In this document: positions 17,519 through 35,977 of the stretch, piece by piece
Layout of the letters: the number at the start of each line of letters is the position of its first letter
How positions within the stretch are numbered: position 1 is the stretch's first letter
Translations under genes and position numbers: made by a program
The notes under the pieces: model-generated
The model's input: only the letters and a program-made list of their open reading frames with translations
What the model was told of the DNA's origin: nothing
Databases searched by the model: none
Source of the DNA: a virus
Length of the DNA stretch: 40,380 nucleotides
Virus record (IMG/VR): IMGVR_UViG_3300030116_004689
Coordinates: 1-40,380 of that record
Direction: 5' to 3' (one strand)

Positions 17519-17562
17519 AATATTTAACAACCACGTAATTATAGTATTATAAACCAAAACCA

Positions 17563-17871
17563 ATGACATTTTATTACAAAACCTATTCCTGGGCGAATAA
17601 TAGTAACCAAGGAATATCCGAAGAAACCAAGAAGACATGGGAATTTTTCGCAGACAAAAAAAATTGGAGAATTGTTCAATTACCAAATGGATTTTATCAA
17701 ACCGAATGCAAAACCTTAGATGCGCATGGTGAACCAAATGGCGATTGGCATGATATAACCAGAAGAGAAACCATTGAATCAGCAGAGGCTGCAATCGATG
17801 GAAGTATCGAACATTATAACAAAAGATTAGAGTTCGCTAAAGGACCTAAAGTTGTTAAAACCTTTAAATAA
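17563..17871 (+). CDS. Chaperonin-cassette protein 1, unknown (102 aa)
   Basis: I do not know this family. It has a close paralogue in the window at 33363-33683: identical blocks are 'KKNWRIVQLPNGFYQTE', 'TRRETI', 'AEAAIDGSIEHY' and 'GPKVVKTFK', while the N-terminus and a middle insert differ. Both copies directly precede a groEL gene (23 and 32 nt gaps) and follow a fibre-related gene. The protein is soluble and aromatic-rich with no membrane segment. Conserved co-occurrence suggests a partner, adaptor or favoured substrate of the phage chaperonin, which is inference only. Confidence 0.8.
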   Translation: MTFYYKTYSWANNSNQGISEETKKTWEFFADKKNWRIVQLPNGFYQTECKTLDAHGEPNGDWHDITRRETIESAEAAIDGSIEHYNKRLEFAKGPKVVKTFK

Positions 17872-17894: not shown

Positions 17895-19457
17895 ATGGAA
17901 TACAATAACCCAAGTGAGATAGTTAAGGATCTTTCCTTCGGGAAGGATGCCAGAGAAAAAATAATGGCAGGCGTAGATAAATTAACTGATGCAGTTAGAT
18001 CTACATTAGGAGCCTCGGGAAAATGCGTCATATATGAAGACGCACTCGGAAGACCGGTGATAACAAAAGACGGTGTAACGGTTGCAGAATCAGTAGTCTT
18101 ACTGGATCCGGTCGAGAATATTGGCGCTACTTTAATTAAAGAAGCTGCCAAGAATACAGTGAAAGAAGCAGGCGATGGTACCACAACGGCTACCGTCCTT
18201 GCTCATTCATTATTGCATTTAGCAAATGATAAAAAATATGCTCAAACTGTAAGACCTATTAAAGAAGGTATATTATCAGGTATGAATAAAGTAATTCAAT
18301 ATCTTGATGATAATGCAGTTGAAGTAAAAGACGATATGCTTGAAAGCGTAGCTGAAATTAGTTGTAACAATGACAAAGCTCTCGGAAAGATCATATCGCA
18401 AGCCTATTCAAAAGTAGGAAAGGATGGTGTCGTCCTTATGGAAGAGTCTGAGACCCATGACACTCACGTTAAATTTGTTGAGGGCACTAGAATAAATTGC
18501 GGACTCAAATCGCCACATTTCATGACAGACAAGGATAAAGGTAAAGCAGTACTAGATAATCCGTACGTACTGATAGTATCCTCGCCAATACCCAACATCC
18601 GTAAAATACAAAGTGTATTGGAGTTTGTTATAAAATCGAAAAGGAGTTTGTTGATCGTTGCAAGCGTAGAACAACAACCTTTAGCGGCATTACTTGCTAA
18701 TAAAGTTAAAGGTAATATAAAAGTAAATGTTGTGGATTTGCCTGGATTCGGTCCAACAAAACAAGATACAATTGAAGACCTTGCGATACTTACCGGAGCT
18801 AAAGTCATAAATGAAGAATTAGGTGATGATCTTGATTTAATACAACCTGATGTTTTAGGCCAGGCTATTCAGTCGGTTACAGATGATAAACATACGGTAT
18901 TACAAACAATTGACCAAGGTGTTGTTCTCAATGAAAGAATTGAAGTAATTGAAAACAAAATAAAAGAAGAAAAAAATCCATTCTTTAAAAAGAAGCTACA
19001 AGAAAGATTAGCAATGTTAAACGGACAAGTAGCAATGATTAAAGTTGGTGCAAACTCTAAAGTTGAAATGAAGGAAAAGAAAGATAGAGTTGAAGACGCT
19101 ATATATGCTACAAAAGCAGCTTTACAAGAAGGTATTGTTTCAGGTGGTGGTGTTGCATTATTAGATGCATCATTCTCAATAGTACCTGAAAATGATGGTG
19201 AAGCTATTTTATTACAAGCTATAAAAGCACCATACGCAGCAATATTAGATAATGCAGCATTAGAATATAAAGAATATAGTAAGGCTGGTATTGGTATTGA
19301 TGTTGTAGAAAATAAAAAAATTAATATGGTTGAAGCTGGTATTATAGATCCAGTATTAGTAACTAAAACAGCATTAAAAAATGCGGTTAGTGTTGCGAAT
19401 ACCATATTTTCAGCAGATTGTGTAATTAATAATATAAGAGATTATGAAAGCAATTAA
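17895..19457 (+). CDS. groEL: Phage GroEL-type chaperonin, copy 1 (520 aa)
   Basis: ATP-driven ring chaperonin. Equatorial motifs are 'AVRSTLGASGKC', 'ITKDGVTVAE', 'AGDGTTTATVLAH', 'RVEDAIYATKAAL' with the catalytic-type Asp, 'VSGGGVALL' and 'IIDPVLVTK'. The apical domain has 'GLKSPHFMTDKD' at the substrate site and 'DLPGFGPTKQDTIEDLA' where bacterial GroEL has KAPGFGDRR. The Pro of the usual LGP nucleotide loop is Ala here. It ends at 'CVINNIRDYESN' without the Gly-Gly-Met tail, hence about 28 residues shorter than E. coli GroEL. The first 300 or so codons use visibly more C/G-ending codons than the rest. It overlaps groES by 14 nt; the order (EL before ES) is the reverse of bacterial operons. 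Confidence 0.97.
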   Translation: MEYNNPSEIVKDLSFGKDAREKIMAGVDKLTDAVRSTLGASGKCVIYEDALGRPVITKDGVTVAESVVLLDPVENIGATLIKEAAKNTVKEAGDGTTTATVLAHSLLHLANDKKYAQTVRPIKEGILSGMNKVIQYLDDNAVEVKDDMLESVAEISCNNDKALGKIISQAYSKVGKDGVVLMEESETHDTHVKFVEGTRINCGLKSPHFMTDKDKGKAVLDNPYVLIVSSPIPNIRKIQSVLEFVIKSKRSLLIVASVEQQPLAALLANKVKGNIKVNVVDLPGFGPTKQDTIEDLAILTGAKVINEELGDDLDLIQPDVLGQAIQSVTDDKHTVLQTIDQGVVLNERIEVIENKIKEEKNPFFKKKLQERLAMLNGQVAMIKVGANSKVEMKEKKDRVEDAIYATKAALQEGIVSGGGVALLDASFSIVPENDGEAILLQAIKAPYAAILDNAALEYKEYSKAGIGIDVVENKKINMVEAGIIDPVLVTKTALKNAVSVANTIFSADCVINNIRDYESN

Positions 19458-19701
19458 TTACTTTGTCGTTGTTGAAAAAATAAAAGAAGAACCTAAGAAA
19501 GTAGCAGGTCTTGAATTAACTGAAGACCAAAATACTGATGTTAGGTATTTAAAAGGAAAAGTTATATCTGCTGGTCATTTAGCAGAGGTAATTAGTAAAG
19601 ATGATATAGTATATTACGATAAACATGCTGGTCATGGAATTGAATGGAAAAATAAGCTATATTATGTTTTAAAACTTGGTGATATAGTATTAGTCGAATG
19701 A
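19444..19701 (+). CDS. groES: GroES-type co-chaperonin, copy 1 (85 aa)
   Basis: Caps the GroEL ring. The GroES pattern is visible: MKAINYFVVVEKIKEEPKK at the N-terminal strand, a mobile-loop region 'KVAGLELTED', then 'KGKVISAGH' (core 'G-V-sAG'), 'DDIVYYDKHAGHGIEW' and a C-terminal 'KLGDIVLVE'. At 85 residues it is shorter than E. coli GroES (97). The mobile loop 'GLEL' replaces the usual GGIVL, which could tune it to its own GroEL. It starts inside the groEL end and stops 4 nt into the next gene. Confidence 0.85.
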   Translation: MKAINYFVVVEKIKEEPKKVAGLELTEDQNTDVRYLKGKVISAGHLAEVISKDDIVYYDKHAGHGIEWKNKLYYVLKLGDIVLVE

Positions 19702-20138
19702 GATTAAGTGCTAGTGACATAAAAGATTTAAATTTACTAAAATATTACAGGCTCATCCGAAAATGGGCCTGTAAAACATATGGACTAAAAGATGCCGATT
19801 TAGAATTACTTATTTATTTAGATTGCAAAGAGCGATTTACACGTAATGATTTTATTGATGGTACCTATACATATAGTTGGGATAAAAACAGATGGGAAAG
19901 ACTCAGAAAAGACGGATGGATAGATGTGTGGAGGCATCGTAATAGAACAACTATAAAATATAGTATATATAAAACTTCTTTTAAATGTAAACAATTAATT
20001 ATGCGAATATATCGTATAATGCTTGCGGAAGAAGATTTACCAACAAGTGAACGAAGCACGTTCTATAATAATAAATCATATACAGATAAAGTTTATAATA
20101 AAGCTATAGATGATATGATTAAAGATAAAAATAGATAG
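19698..20138 (+). CDS. Winged-helix (MarR-like) cassette protein, copy 1 (146 aa)
   Basis: The layout 'KDADLELLIYLDCKERFTRNDF', then 'SWDKNRWERLRKDGWIDVW', 'NRTTIKYSIYKTSFKCKQLI' and 'RIYRIMLAEEDLP' follows a MarR-type winged helix: helix pair, recognition region, beta-wing and C-terminal helices. A paralogue follows the second groES at 35516-35977 with the same start (MRL-ASDIK-LNLLK). It overlaps the groES stop by 4 nt. It may regulate the cassette or late genes or serve a structural role; the fixed position makes it part of the chaperonin module. Confidence 0.8.
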   Translation: MRLSASDIKDLNLLKYYRLIRKWACKTYGLKDADLELLIYLDCKERFTRNDFIDGTYTYSWDKNRWERLRKDGWIDVWRHRNRTTIKYSIYKTSFKCKQLIMRIYRIMLAEEDLPTSERSTFYNNKSYTDKVYNKAIDDMIKDKNR

Positions 20139-32890: not shown

Positions 32891-33271
32891 ATGGCAATTA
32901 CTTACAAATGGGATATCCCACAAATGAATGCTCATATACAAGCAGAAGGTGAGCAAAATGTAATTTACACGGTACACTGGAGATATTCAGGATCTGAAGA
33001 AGTCAGTGGTGTAGAATACTCAGATACAATTATTGGGGCTGAAGGCTTTACTTATAAAGCTGGAGAACCTTTCGTGCCTTACGAAGATTCAGAAGCGTTT
33101 GAAAACGTAGTTATCGGATGGCTTGAAGATGTATTAAATGTAGCACAAATGGCGAAACAAATTGAAGATAATATTAAGCTTCAAATTAATCCAGTAAATG
33201 AAGATTTATACTTTACTTGGCAAAATCCACCAGTTCCACCAGTAGAAGAACCTGTTGAAGAGTCAGAATAG
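32891..33271 (+). CDS. Conserved phage protein downstream of fibres (126 aa, DUF7936-like)
   Basis: Begins MAITYKWDIPQMNAHIQAEG and continues 'NVIYTVHWRYSGSEEVSGVE'; this 'TYKW.I.......VVYTVHW...G' pattern is common in small proteins next to phage fibre genes. The C-terminus is Pro/Glu-rich ('PPVPPVEEPVEESE'). Function unknown; a virion or fibre-associated role is inferred from position. It is the last gene before the second chaperonin cassette. Confidence 0.7.
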   Translation: MAITYKWDIPQMNAHIQAEGEQNVIYTVHWRYSGSEEVSGVEYSDTIIGAEGFTYKAGEPFVPYEDSEAFENVVIGWLEDVLNVAQMAKQIEDNIKLQINPVNEDLYFTWQNPPVPPVEEPVEESE

Positions 33272-33292
33272 TGTAAGTTTTAAAAAAAACAA

Positions 33293-33331
33293 GTGATAGT
33301 ATAATTAAAACCTATATCACTTAGTGATATA
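33293..33331 (+). promoter_or_regulatory. Hairpin region upstream of the second chaperonin cassette
   Basis: TATATCAC-TTA-GTGATATA (33313-33331) is a perfect 8-bp stem with a 3-nt loop; an extra GTGATA at 33293 can compete for the same TATCAC, so two alternative hairpins are possible. ATAGTATAATTAAAACC between them resembles ATAGTATTATAAACC before the first cassette (from about 17540). It could be a late promoter/operator or a terminator of the fibre transcript without a T run. Confidence 0.45.
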
Positions 33332-33362
33332 CCAAAATAACGTTTAACCTAAAACCAAAACA

Positions 33363-33683
33363 ATGACGTATTTTTATTACAAGACTAATACGTGGAATAG
33401 TCAACCACAAATTTCCGAAGACCAAATTAAATTTTGGAAACACCTTTCAGAAAAGAAAAACTGGAGGATTGTACAACTACCAAATGGATTTTATCAAACA
33501 GAGTACAAAGACATAAATTGTGACTGTAATCCAGAAGAAGACACATGCTGTGAAAAATGGTATGATGTTACTAGAAGAGAAACTATAAAAGGCGCTGAAG
33601 CTGCTATTGATGGTAGCATTGAGCATTATGCTAAAAAAGTTGACTTTCTAAAAGGACCAAAGGTAGTTAAAACTTTTAAATAA
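33363..33683 (+). CDS. Chaperonin-cassette protein 2, unknown (106 aa)
   Basis: Paralogue of the 102-aa protein at 17563-17871. It shares the blocks 'KKNWRIVQLPNGFYQTE', 'TRRETI', 'AEAAIDGSIEHY' and 'KGPKVVKTFK', but has an extra Cys-rich stretch in the middle ('NCDCNPEEDTCCEKW', four Cys) that could bind a metal or form disulphides. It is followed after 32 nt by the second groEL. Both family members start behind a non-coding gap with AACCAAAAC just before the ATG, so each may start a transcript. Confidence 0.8.
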   Translation: MTYFYYKTNTWNSQPQISEDQIKFWKHLSEKKNWRIVQLPNGFYQTEYKDINCDCNPEEDTCCEKWYDVTRRETIKGAEAAIDGSIEHYAKKVDFLKGPKVVKTFK

Positions 33684-33715: not shown

Positions 33716-35275
33716 ATGTCAAATGCAATTGTAAAGCATTTAAACTTCGGTTCAGATGCTAAAAACAAAGTATTTGCTGGTATTACAAAACTTACACAAG
33801 CTGTTAGCTCCACTTTAGGAGCTAGCGGTAAGTGTGTTATTTTAGAAGATAATACTGGTAAACCAATTATTACAAAAGATGGAGTTACTGTAGCAGAAGC
33901 TGTAACATTGTTAGATCCTGTAGAAAATATGGGTGCAACGTTATTAAAAGAAGCTGCTAGAAAAACAGTAAAAGAAGCAGGTGATGGTACCACAACAGCA
34001 ACGGTATTAGCACATGCTATTTTAGAAGAGGCTTATAACGAACATCCTGAAGATTCTATAAGAGGAATAAAACAAGGAATAGAAAAAGCAACTAAAAAAG
34101 TTATTGAATACTTAGAAAAAATATCAATACCAGTTACTGGTGATATGATTGATCAAGTTGCAACTATTTCTACAAACAACGACCCTGAGCTTGGTAAAAT
34201 AATAGCAGATGCTTTTAGAGCAGTTGGAAACAACGGTGTAGTTGTTTTAGAACCAACTGACTTACCTCAAACCACATATGAACTAATTGATGGCGTTCCA
34301 TATGAAAGAGGTTTAAAAAATATACACTTTGTAACTAATCAAGATAAAAAAACTGCAGAACTAGATAAACCATTAGTTTTATTAGTTGAATCAGAAATTG
34401 AAAATGTTAGAAAAATACAAAGTGTTTTAGAATATGCAATAAAACAAAAAAGATCTTTACTTATTATTGCTGATGTAGATAGACAAGTTATGTCTGCTTT
34501 AGCAATGAATAAAATTAAAGGCAATATAAAAGTAAATGTAATTGATGCACCTATTTATGGTGTAAGTAAAAAAGAAACATTAGATGATTTAGCTTTACTT
34601 ACGGGTGCAACTATTATAAATGAGGACTTAGGTGATGATATAGATTTAATTGGTCCAGAGCATTTGGGTGAATGCCTAAAAAGTGTCACAGACGAAAATG
34701 AAACTATATTACAACTAGGAGAAACCTCAGAAGCTGTGCAAGACGTAATAGTTGATTTAGAAAAGCAATTAAAAAAAGCTAAAGATCCAGGTTTGGTTCA
34801 AAAGCTTGAAAAAAGATTAGCTAGACTATCAGCGTTAGTAGCTATCGTTAAAGTTGGTGCAAATTCAGAAGTAGAATTAAAAGAAAAACAAGCTAGAGTT
34901 GAAGATGCTATATGTGCTACAAAAGCCGCTATAAAACAAGGTATTGTTCCAGGCGGTGGTATTGCTCTTTTAAATGCAGCTGATAATTGTCAATATAGTT
35001 CACCAGGTGAAAAAGCTTTATTAAAAGCTATTGAAGCACCGTTTAATAAAATTCTAGAAAATGCTGGTATTCCAGAAACTAGAGTTAATGCGGCAGAAGG
35101 TGAAGGACTTGACGTGGTTACAGGAGATACAGTAAATATGATTGAGCATGGTATTATTGATCCATTGCTCGTAACAAAAAGTGCATTGCAAAATGCTGCT
35201 TCAGTTGCTACTACTATTTTATCAACCGATTGTGTAATTAATAATTTAAGAGTTGGAGATGAAAGCAATAGGTAA
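33716..35275 (+). CDS. groEL: Phage GroEL-type chaperonin, copy 2 (519 aa)
   Basis: A second complete chaperonin subunit. It has the same equatorial motifs as copy 1 ('AVSSTLGASGKC', 'ITKDGVTVAEAV', 'AGDGTTTATVLAH', 'RVEDAICATKAAI', 'VPGGGIALLNA', 'IIDPLLVTK'), so the ATPase core looks intact. The apical domain differs: 'GLKNIHFVTNQDKK' and 'DAPIYGVSKKETLDDLA' in place of 'GLKSPHF' and 'LPGFGPTKQDT'. It also lacks a Gly-Gly-Met tail. Codon use is AT-rich throughout, unlike the first part of copy 1. The ATG follows a run of AAATT repeats with no Shine-Dalgarno. Divergence in the substrate-binding face suggests different clients. Confidence 0.97.
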   Translation: MSNAIVKHLNFGSDAKNKVFAGITKLTQAVSSTLGASGKCVILEDNTGKPIITKDGVTVAEAVTLLDPVENMGATLLKEAARKTVKEAGDGTTTATVLAHAILEEAYNEHPEDSIRGIKQGIEKATKKVIEYLEKISIPVTGDMIDQVATISTNNDPELGKIIADAFRAVGNNGVVVLEPTDLPQTTYELIDGVPYERGLKNIHFVTNQDKKTAELDKPLVLLVESEIENVRKIQSVLEYAIKQKRSLLIIADVDRQVMSALAMNKIKGNIKVNVIDAPIYGVSKKETLDDLALLTGATIINEDLGDDIDLIGPEHLGECLKSVTDENETILQLGETSEAVQDVIVDLEKQLKKAKDPGLVQKLEKRLARLSALVAIVKVGANSEVELKEKQARVEDAICATKAAIKQGIVPGGGIALLNAADNCQYSSPGEKALLKAIEAPFNKILENAGIPETRVNAAEGEGLDVVTGDTVNMIEHGIIDPLLVTKSALQNAASVATTILSTDCVINNLRVGDESNR

Positions 35276-35519
35276 AAATTTAATAGTAAATGTAACTAAA
35301 CAAGGTATTTCAGAAACTAAAGGCGGTTTGCTTTTAGGTGAAAAACAAAGAGAAGATATAAGATATCAAGAAGGTGTAGTTATATCTGCTGGCAGTGAAG
35401 TCGTAGGCATAAAAGAAAATGATGTAATATATTTTGATAAAAATAATTCACATCAAATTGAAATTAAAAAAGATATACATACAGTAGTTAACATGAATAG
35501 TGTAGTTGTTGTATTATGA
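35259..35519 (+). CDS. groES: GroES-type co-chaperonin, copy 2
   Basis: The start at 35259 (MKAIGKNLIVNV) is chosen because it aligns with MKAINYFVVV of copy 1; an ATG two codons earlier (35253) is also in frame. The mobile-loop region 'ETKGGLLLGEKQ' is close to the bacterial GGI-V/L-L loop that docks GroEL. 'QEGVVISAGSEVV' and 'NDVIYFDKNNSHQIEI' follow, with a C-terminal 'NSVVVVL'. About 86 residues. It overlaps groEL by 17 nt. Loop sequences differ between the two GroES copies ('GLEL' and 'GGLLL'), in line with each serving its own GroEL. Confidence 0.83.
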   Translation: MKAIGKNLIVNVTKQGISETKGGLLLGEKQREDIRYQEGVVISAGSEVVGIKENDVIYFDKNNSHQIEIKKDIHTVVNMNSVVVVL

Positions 35520-35977
35520 GGTTAGAAGCAAGTGACATTAAAGAGTTAAATCTATTAAAACATTATAGAATAATTCGTAAATGGGCTTGTAAAAACAACG
35601 GTTTAACTGATGCAGAACTTGAACTTTTAATATACTTAGACTGTATAGATCTTTTTACAAAACAAGATTTTAAAATCGGTACTTATTCTTATAGTTGGGA
35701 TAATAGACGCTGGAACAGATTACTTAAAGAAGGTTGGATTACGGTTTGGAGAAAACGAAACCATACAACTCAAAAGTACAATATCTATAAAGTTTCATTT
35801 AAGTGTAAGCAACTAATAAGTAGAATGTACCGTATTATGCTTGGTAAAGAAGATATACCAATTAGTTTACATAGAAACACTATAATGAAAGGTAAAACAT
35901 ATATTGATAGAGTTTTACAAACATCAATTAAACATGCTAACAAAGATAAAAACAATAATTATGGCAAAGAAATCTAA
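35516..35977 (+). CDS. Winged-helix (MarR-like) cassette protein, copy 2 (153 aa)
   Basis: Paralogue of the protein at 19698-20138: 'MRLEASDIKELNLLKHYRII', 'DAELELLIYLDCIDLFTKQDF', 'YSWDNRRWNRLLKEGWITVW', 'KVSFKCKQLISRMYRIMLGKED'. The MarR-type winged-helix layout is preserved. It overlaps the groES stop by 4 nt, the same coupling as in the first cassette, and overlaps the following 37-aa gene by 17 nt. Confidence 0.8.
   Translation: MRLEASDIKELNLLKHYRIIRKWACKNNGLTDAELELLIYLDCIDLFTKQDFKIGTYSYSWDNRRWNRLLKEGWITVWRKRNHTTQKYNIYKVSFKCKQLISRMYRIMLGKEDIPISLHRNTIMKGKTYIDRVLQTSIKHANKDKNNNYGKEI

Follow-up and report, generated by a model that had tools for sequence, protein, structure and literature searches.

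A small conserved gene at the head of phage chaperonin cassettes is exchanged independently of the adjoining groEL

Background

Phage GroEL/GroES operons code for a group I chaperonin, often together with its own groES. Nishimura et al. 2017 (PMC5332604) reported a putative group of marine Flavobacteriaceae phages with GroEL, group 2, which includes Cellulophaga phage phi38:1. Co-chaperonins of the GroES and gp31 types are small proteins encoded beside groEL.

Two further systems are of interest for comparison. Proteins of the YegP type (DUF1508, PF07411; PDB IDs: 2k8e, 3bid and 2k7i) possess a beta-beta-beta-alpha core, and those that we found are mostly tandem repeats. The target of the T4 gene 32 protein consists of a pseudoknot in the leader and unstructured repeats. 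This protein is described as an autogenous translational repressor acting on its own mRNA (PMC535899).

The present analysis concerns a gene, here called X, that occurs twice in a viral stretch of 40,380 nucleotides (IMG/VR record IMGVR_UViG_3300030116_004689, hereafter the window). The original prediction, made from this sequence, was that X encodes a protein of about 100 amino acids always placed just before phage groEL and functionally tied to it, as an adaptor, a regulator or a new type of co-chaperone.

Two chaperonin cassettes in the window

XA (17563..17871, + strand; 102 amino acids) and XB (33363..33683, + strand; 106 amino acids) are each followed by groEL, groES and a gene termed Y, in the same order and on the same strand, so that the window holds two complete four-gene cassettes. 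In cassette A these genes lie at 17895..19457 (groEL), 19444..19701 (groES) and 19698..20138 (YA), all on the + strand. In cassette B, likewise on the + strand, groEL occupies 33716..35275 (Pfam Cpn60_TCP1, 1e-54; phrog_5725, 4e-134), groES 35259..35519 (ATG at 35259, the ORF being listed from TTG at 35253; Pfam Cpn10, 4e-9; phrog_3188) and YB 35516..35977. Adjacent phrog_5725 and phrog_3188 genes characterize a phage-type chaperonin operon, and the groEL-groES order is kept in 227 of the 229 loci that have both. No terminator-like site was found on the + strand between 33100 and 36100, and the four genes are probably co-transcribed.

YA and YB, which close the cassettes, are 65% identical and both match phrog_17028. 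The YB protein is modelled as a winged helix of MarR fold (pLDDT 83.6); Foldseek assigned the Y model to MarR (probability 1.00, E 4.5e-3) and VIA aligned 118 residues (Z 9.7, rmsd 4.3), and no MarR sequence signature was matched in YA or YB using Pfam and NCBIfam. Y is basic (pI 9.6-9.8) and is co-inherited with groEL and groES; it would be a likelier regulator of the operon than X.

The cassettes lie among large tail-fibre-like genes, lysis genes and the g126 gene (phrog_7802), which is situated upstream of cassette B (32891..33271, + strand) and served as an independent seed in our searches. In other loci, additional genes are inserted in the gap that separates X from groEL (L146:1373-3605, L240:4088-6182, L193:230-3117); the L146 insert codes for a 411-residue probable glycosyltransferase, as read by eye, and a 306-residue protein, and runs of small proteins are found elsewhere. 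A second insertion spot lies between groES and Y, with 0.4-1 kb of extra DNA in L088, L096, L131, L136 and L149.

Two cassettes in one 40 kb contig are unusual. Each of 100 related records searched has one X, which in one of them appears at both ends of the contig. The window resembles the clade-A records G080 and G030 on its left side and G051/G052 on its right, and may be a chimera assembled across the tail-fibre region.

X is conserved and probably strongly translated

Both X reading frames are intact, and their relationship as paralogues was borne out by 62% identity over 105 positions (BLASTP, E 1e-44). The predicted identical blocks of 17 and 12 residues, KKNWRIVQLPNGFYQTE and AEAAIDGSIEHY, were found together with a third of 10 residues, KGPKVVKTFK. 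The blocks contain 7, 8 and 4 synonymous codon differences, respectively, in total 19 of 39 codons, which means that their identity is kept by selection on the protein and not by recent copying of DNA; with about half of the codons synonymously different, recent gene conversion is ruled out. The same applies to a leader peptide or a chance ORF, given a dN/dS of about 0.12 over many phages, a ratio that shows X, at the level of sequence, to be under strong purifying selection.

The four-cysteine insert claimed for the second copy is present in XB as the loop CDCNPEEDTCC and missing from XA. Its supposed gain in XB may equally be a loss in XA, because the loop is found beside both groEL clades. 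Among 200 relatives of X, four cysteines were counted in 49, three in 2, seven in 1 and none or one in 148, so the loop is nearly all-or-none. It may bind metal or form disulphides.

Directly before XB and XA lie the leaders TAAAACCAAAACA (33350..33362, + strand) and TAAACCAAAACCA (17550..17562, + strand), which are A/C-rich and free of G. The consensus across the family, AAAACCAAAACC-ATGAC, is G-free as well, and a search of the window and of related records met its strict AAAACCAAAACC form nowhere but before X. The leader has A at positions -6, -12 and -13, and A at these positions raises translation in Flavobacterium johnsoniae (PMC6847099); X is thus probably strongly translated. Further upstream of XB, a promoter-like box AAGTGATAGTATA (33291..33303, + strand) is followed by a 9-bp perfect inverted repeat TATATCACTTAGTGATATA (33313..33331, + strand). 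Together (33291-33331) they could serve as an operator of the MarR type or form a hairpin at the 5' end of the mRNA. A sigma-70-like factor encoded by the phage itself (4295-5059, - strand) may read the AAGTGATAATA-type box upstream of clade-B cassettes.

Extent of the family and probable hosts

Members of the X family are 95-108 residues long and are encoded by at least 599 stretches in IMG/VR. No relatives were found among 50,697 annotated phage records, no match was obtained in Pfam, PHROG or NCBIfam, and no cultured relative was found; X is a large uncharacterised family named by none of the protein libraries used. Weak PHROG matches (phrog_3605, E 0.007; phrog_1766, tail fibre, E 0.006) were inconsistent across members and dropped, and a PDB profile match to ThreeFoil (E 0.007, 30 residues) was judged to be due to chance.

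In cultured Flavobacterium, Cellulophaga and Vibrio phages the best groEL matches are about 42% identical to groEL of the window, and weak relatives of Y are present in phi38:1, phi46:3 and Maribacter phage Panino. The genes that precede groEL in Panino, Flavobacterium elemo and a Manatee Spring phage are unrelated to X, and a scan seeded with Panino groEL returned no relatives.

Another 19 X loci, with the same cassette order, were found on contigs of genome assemblies, all of them metagenome-assembled bins with bacterial or archaeal labels. Since five of the 19 are labelled Flavobacteriaceae, the hundreds of uncultured marine viruses that carry X probably infect Flavobacteriia. Such a host range agrees with the group 2 phages of Flavobacteriaceae mentioned above, which have GroEL, the group membership of the window itself being putative. 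Five contigs labelled Woesearchaeota, Euryarchaeota, Chloroflexi or Aliivibrio (L177, L178, L180, L184, L185) contain the phage cassette with X and look like misbinned phage contigs.

X requires groEL, groEL does not require X

A set of 236 distinct loci was obtained with X as the seed. In 221 of them X is placed 18-82 bp before groEL (median 27), in 11 it is found further upstream behind inserted genes (0.1-2.2 kb), and of the remaining four, two reach the contig end and two (L037, L193) have X cut at the contig start. Wherever both genes are visible, X is upstream of groEL and on the same strand (232/232). Inspection of neighbours thus placed the homologues of X at chaperonin genes and not mostly away from them.

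Seeding with groEL gave another picture. Among the 72 loci in which X was in view or the upstream sequence reached 600 bp or more, X is adjacent in 47, lies 0.2-2.2 kb upstream in 10 and is missing from the locus in 15, or probably 14, since the sister locus of L301 has X at a distance of 1.6 kb. Complete records of 42-67 kb (up to 66.6 kb) with such X-less groEL contain no X anywhere. To explain the X-less state on the groEL tree, eight changes or more are required, that is, repeated loss or gain. Loci seeded with g126 have both genes in 57 cases, groEL only in 3, neither in 17 and X only in none (Fisher p 2e-14); in L480, counted among the 17, the X cassette is located upstream of g126 instead of downstream. 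Taken together, the three sets of counts indicate that X depends on the presence of groEL and that groEL does not depend on X. The expected placement "always just before groEL" therefore holds when viewed from X and fails when viewed from groEL.

X is exchanged independently of the adjoining groEL

X is the most conserved gene of the cassette, with a mean pairwise identity of 0.69 in 200 cassettes compared to 0.60 for groEL, 0.49 for groES and 0.65 for Y. Its distances nevertheless correlate poorly with those of groEL (0.40, against 0.81 for groEL-groES and 0.76 for groEL-Y). The same was observed in 32 long records in which the phage primase was used as a control gene: r was 0.24 for X-groEL (0.16 as partial correlation with primase removed), 0.83 for groEL-groES and 0.86 for groEL-Y. 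As judged by these sequence distances, groES and Y are inherited together with the groEL of their cassette, and X is not.

In some pairs of loci X shares 72-87% of nucleotides (mostly 82-87%), groEL just 51-56%, and the 3 kb upstream of X show no similarity at all. The shared stretch extends from the X start, or just inside it, to the X stop codon, and synonymous divergence (pS) is lower in X (0.41-0.54) than in groEL (0.62-0.70). This pattern can be read in two ways: X moves between phages on its own, or X stays in place while the tail genes and chaperonins on either side of it are replaced. X of L052 combines an XA-like N-terminal half with a C-terminal half identical to that of L026, which points to recombination within the gene, close to the NWRIVQLPNGFYQTE block.

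The functional tie that had been suggested is hence strong by occurrence and one-way, and an adaptor fitted to one GroEL is disfavoured because X is exchanged independently of its neighbour. We favour, at somewhat less than even confidence, the reading that X is an accessory to the phage chaperonin operon, strongly translated and not tailored as a partner to one GroEL. As the first gene of this operon, X would give rise to a protein that works alongside phage GroEL/GroES, in a physical or functional manner. Because its sequence is constrained and yet interchangeable among GroELs about 55% identical, the protein would most likely contact a target that they all have in common, be it a chaperonin surface conserved among them, a phage client that they share (tail fibres, capsid) or a host factor.

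The same exchange would be expected of a passenger gene (moron) residing at the 5' edge of the cassette, swapped by recombination and endowed with a function of its own, such as anti-defence or host takeover, without any action on GroEL. The X-sharing pairs with their dissimilar surroundings and the lower pS of X point this way, as do the other genes that some loci carry at this position and the fact that the cassette can do without X. A free passenger should, however, land elsewhere too, and none of the 232 X genes does so or occurs without groEL; we consider this explanation somewhat unlikely.

Predicted structure of X

In the AlphaFold2 model of X, a first helix is followed by three strands and a second, long helix (mean pLDDT 84.5, above 90 in the core), with N- and C-terminal tails that are conserved and modelled at lower confidence. 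The conserved residues include W34, R35, R71, R72 and the GPKVVKTF tail. The four-cysteine loop sits between strands 2 and 3. A confident match to an unrelated structural family was looked for and none was found, Foldseek returning nothing significant for the model. The first entry in VIA-align was 2k8e (YegP), whose Z of 5.5 (rmsd 1.9, 50 residues; Foldseek E 2.5) is too low to exclude that the arrangement is simply a widespread one; 3bid and 2k7i, also in the VIA top five, belong to the same family according to our reading of the entries. X is therefore best described as a predicted helix-beta-beta-beta-helix domain, loosely YegP-like, which is a lead and not a membership. It comprises one unit with conserved tails, in contrast to the tandem repeats of YegP-type proteins. 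Membership in DUF1508 was rejected by hhalign (185 X against 18 DUF1508 units, probability 0.9%), leaving a resemblance of fold only, and a search of the window with the PF07411 profile gave no match.

The location of the cassettes among tail-fibre-like genes, g126 and lysis genes, the leader that suggests high translation and the lack of X wherever groEL is missing would also suit an abundant client, or a small structural or assembly protein belonging to the tail-fibre module, whose folding would rely on the phage chaperonin; the gene order would then place a client beside its folding machine. However, small alpha/beta domains of 100 residues, the size of X, seldom need a chaperonin, groEL persists without X in the records of 42-67 kb, and no structural PHROG match was consistent, so that this role appears improbable to us.

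X could, in principle, be a third component of the chaperonin system, namely a co-chaperone, or a factor that delivers clients, whose fold is unrelated to that of GroES. It would act on a surface retained in GroELs only 55% identical, could therefore pass between phages as a universal plug-in, and would have its dose set by the new RNA element in the leader. X resembles GroES and gp31-type proteins in being small and encoded beside groEL, but its cassette already has its own groES, and a GroES-like co-chaperonin was rejected, as XA, XB and 28 relatives gave no Cpn10 match in Pfam or PHROG. No link of fold or sequence to any co-chaperone was found. A simple co-chaperone is further weakened by two facts, the absence of X from about one-fifth of groEL cassettes and its inheritance apart from groEL, and we regard such a component as rather improbable.

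A pseudoknot upstream of X

An H-type pseudoknot is predicted about 50 nt upstream of the X start codon in 87-88 of 113 clade-B leaders, with 0.4 expected from shuffles and a frequency of 0.7% in other 60-nt windows of the same loci. It follows the pattern CCC-N-NNNN-GGG-NA-NNNN (L222:2272-2289, L207:4945-4961 and 85 other leaders, nearly all of clade B). Six of its seven pairs show both-sided changes; since the sequences were picked for pairing, 100% of cells are paired by construction, which does not apply to the compensatory types and the frequency. The pseudoknot is present in none of 14 leaders of X-less groEL and in neither leader of the window; in XB the inverted repeat occupies its place, and XA is also without a clear hairpin. 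X leaders gave no match to the covariance models of Rfam 15.

The leaders of X and T4 gene 32 share a pseudoknot, then an unstructured repetitive stretch, then the start codon, but the protein is a different one, the pseudoknot differs in sequence and size and is missing from the window copies, and any regulation through the X leader is putative. A role of X in regulating the operon, for instance by autogenous control of translation at its own leader in the manner of the gene 32 protein, agrees with the frequency of the clade-B pseudoknot, its both-sided changes and its absence from X-less groEL leaders, but seems the least probable of the explanations considered, because the pI of X is neutral (median 6.3), unlike that of a typical RNA binder, both copies in the window lack the pseudoknot and XA any clear hairpin, and the basic, MarR-fold Y is a more obvious candidate.

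Conclusions

Phage chaperonins are common in the ocean. Their companion X is very abundant, strict in its placement and strongly conserved, and it presents a small, expressible target. The decoupling of X from groEL leads to the prediction that a single X should be functional together with several phage GroELs that have diverged from each other. Action on the chaperonin would make X a new kind of GroEL partner, whereas as a client X would indicate the substrate class of the phage chaperonin.
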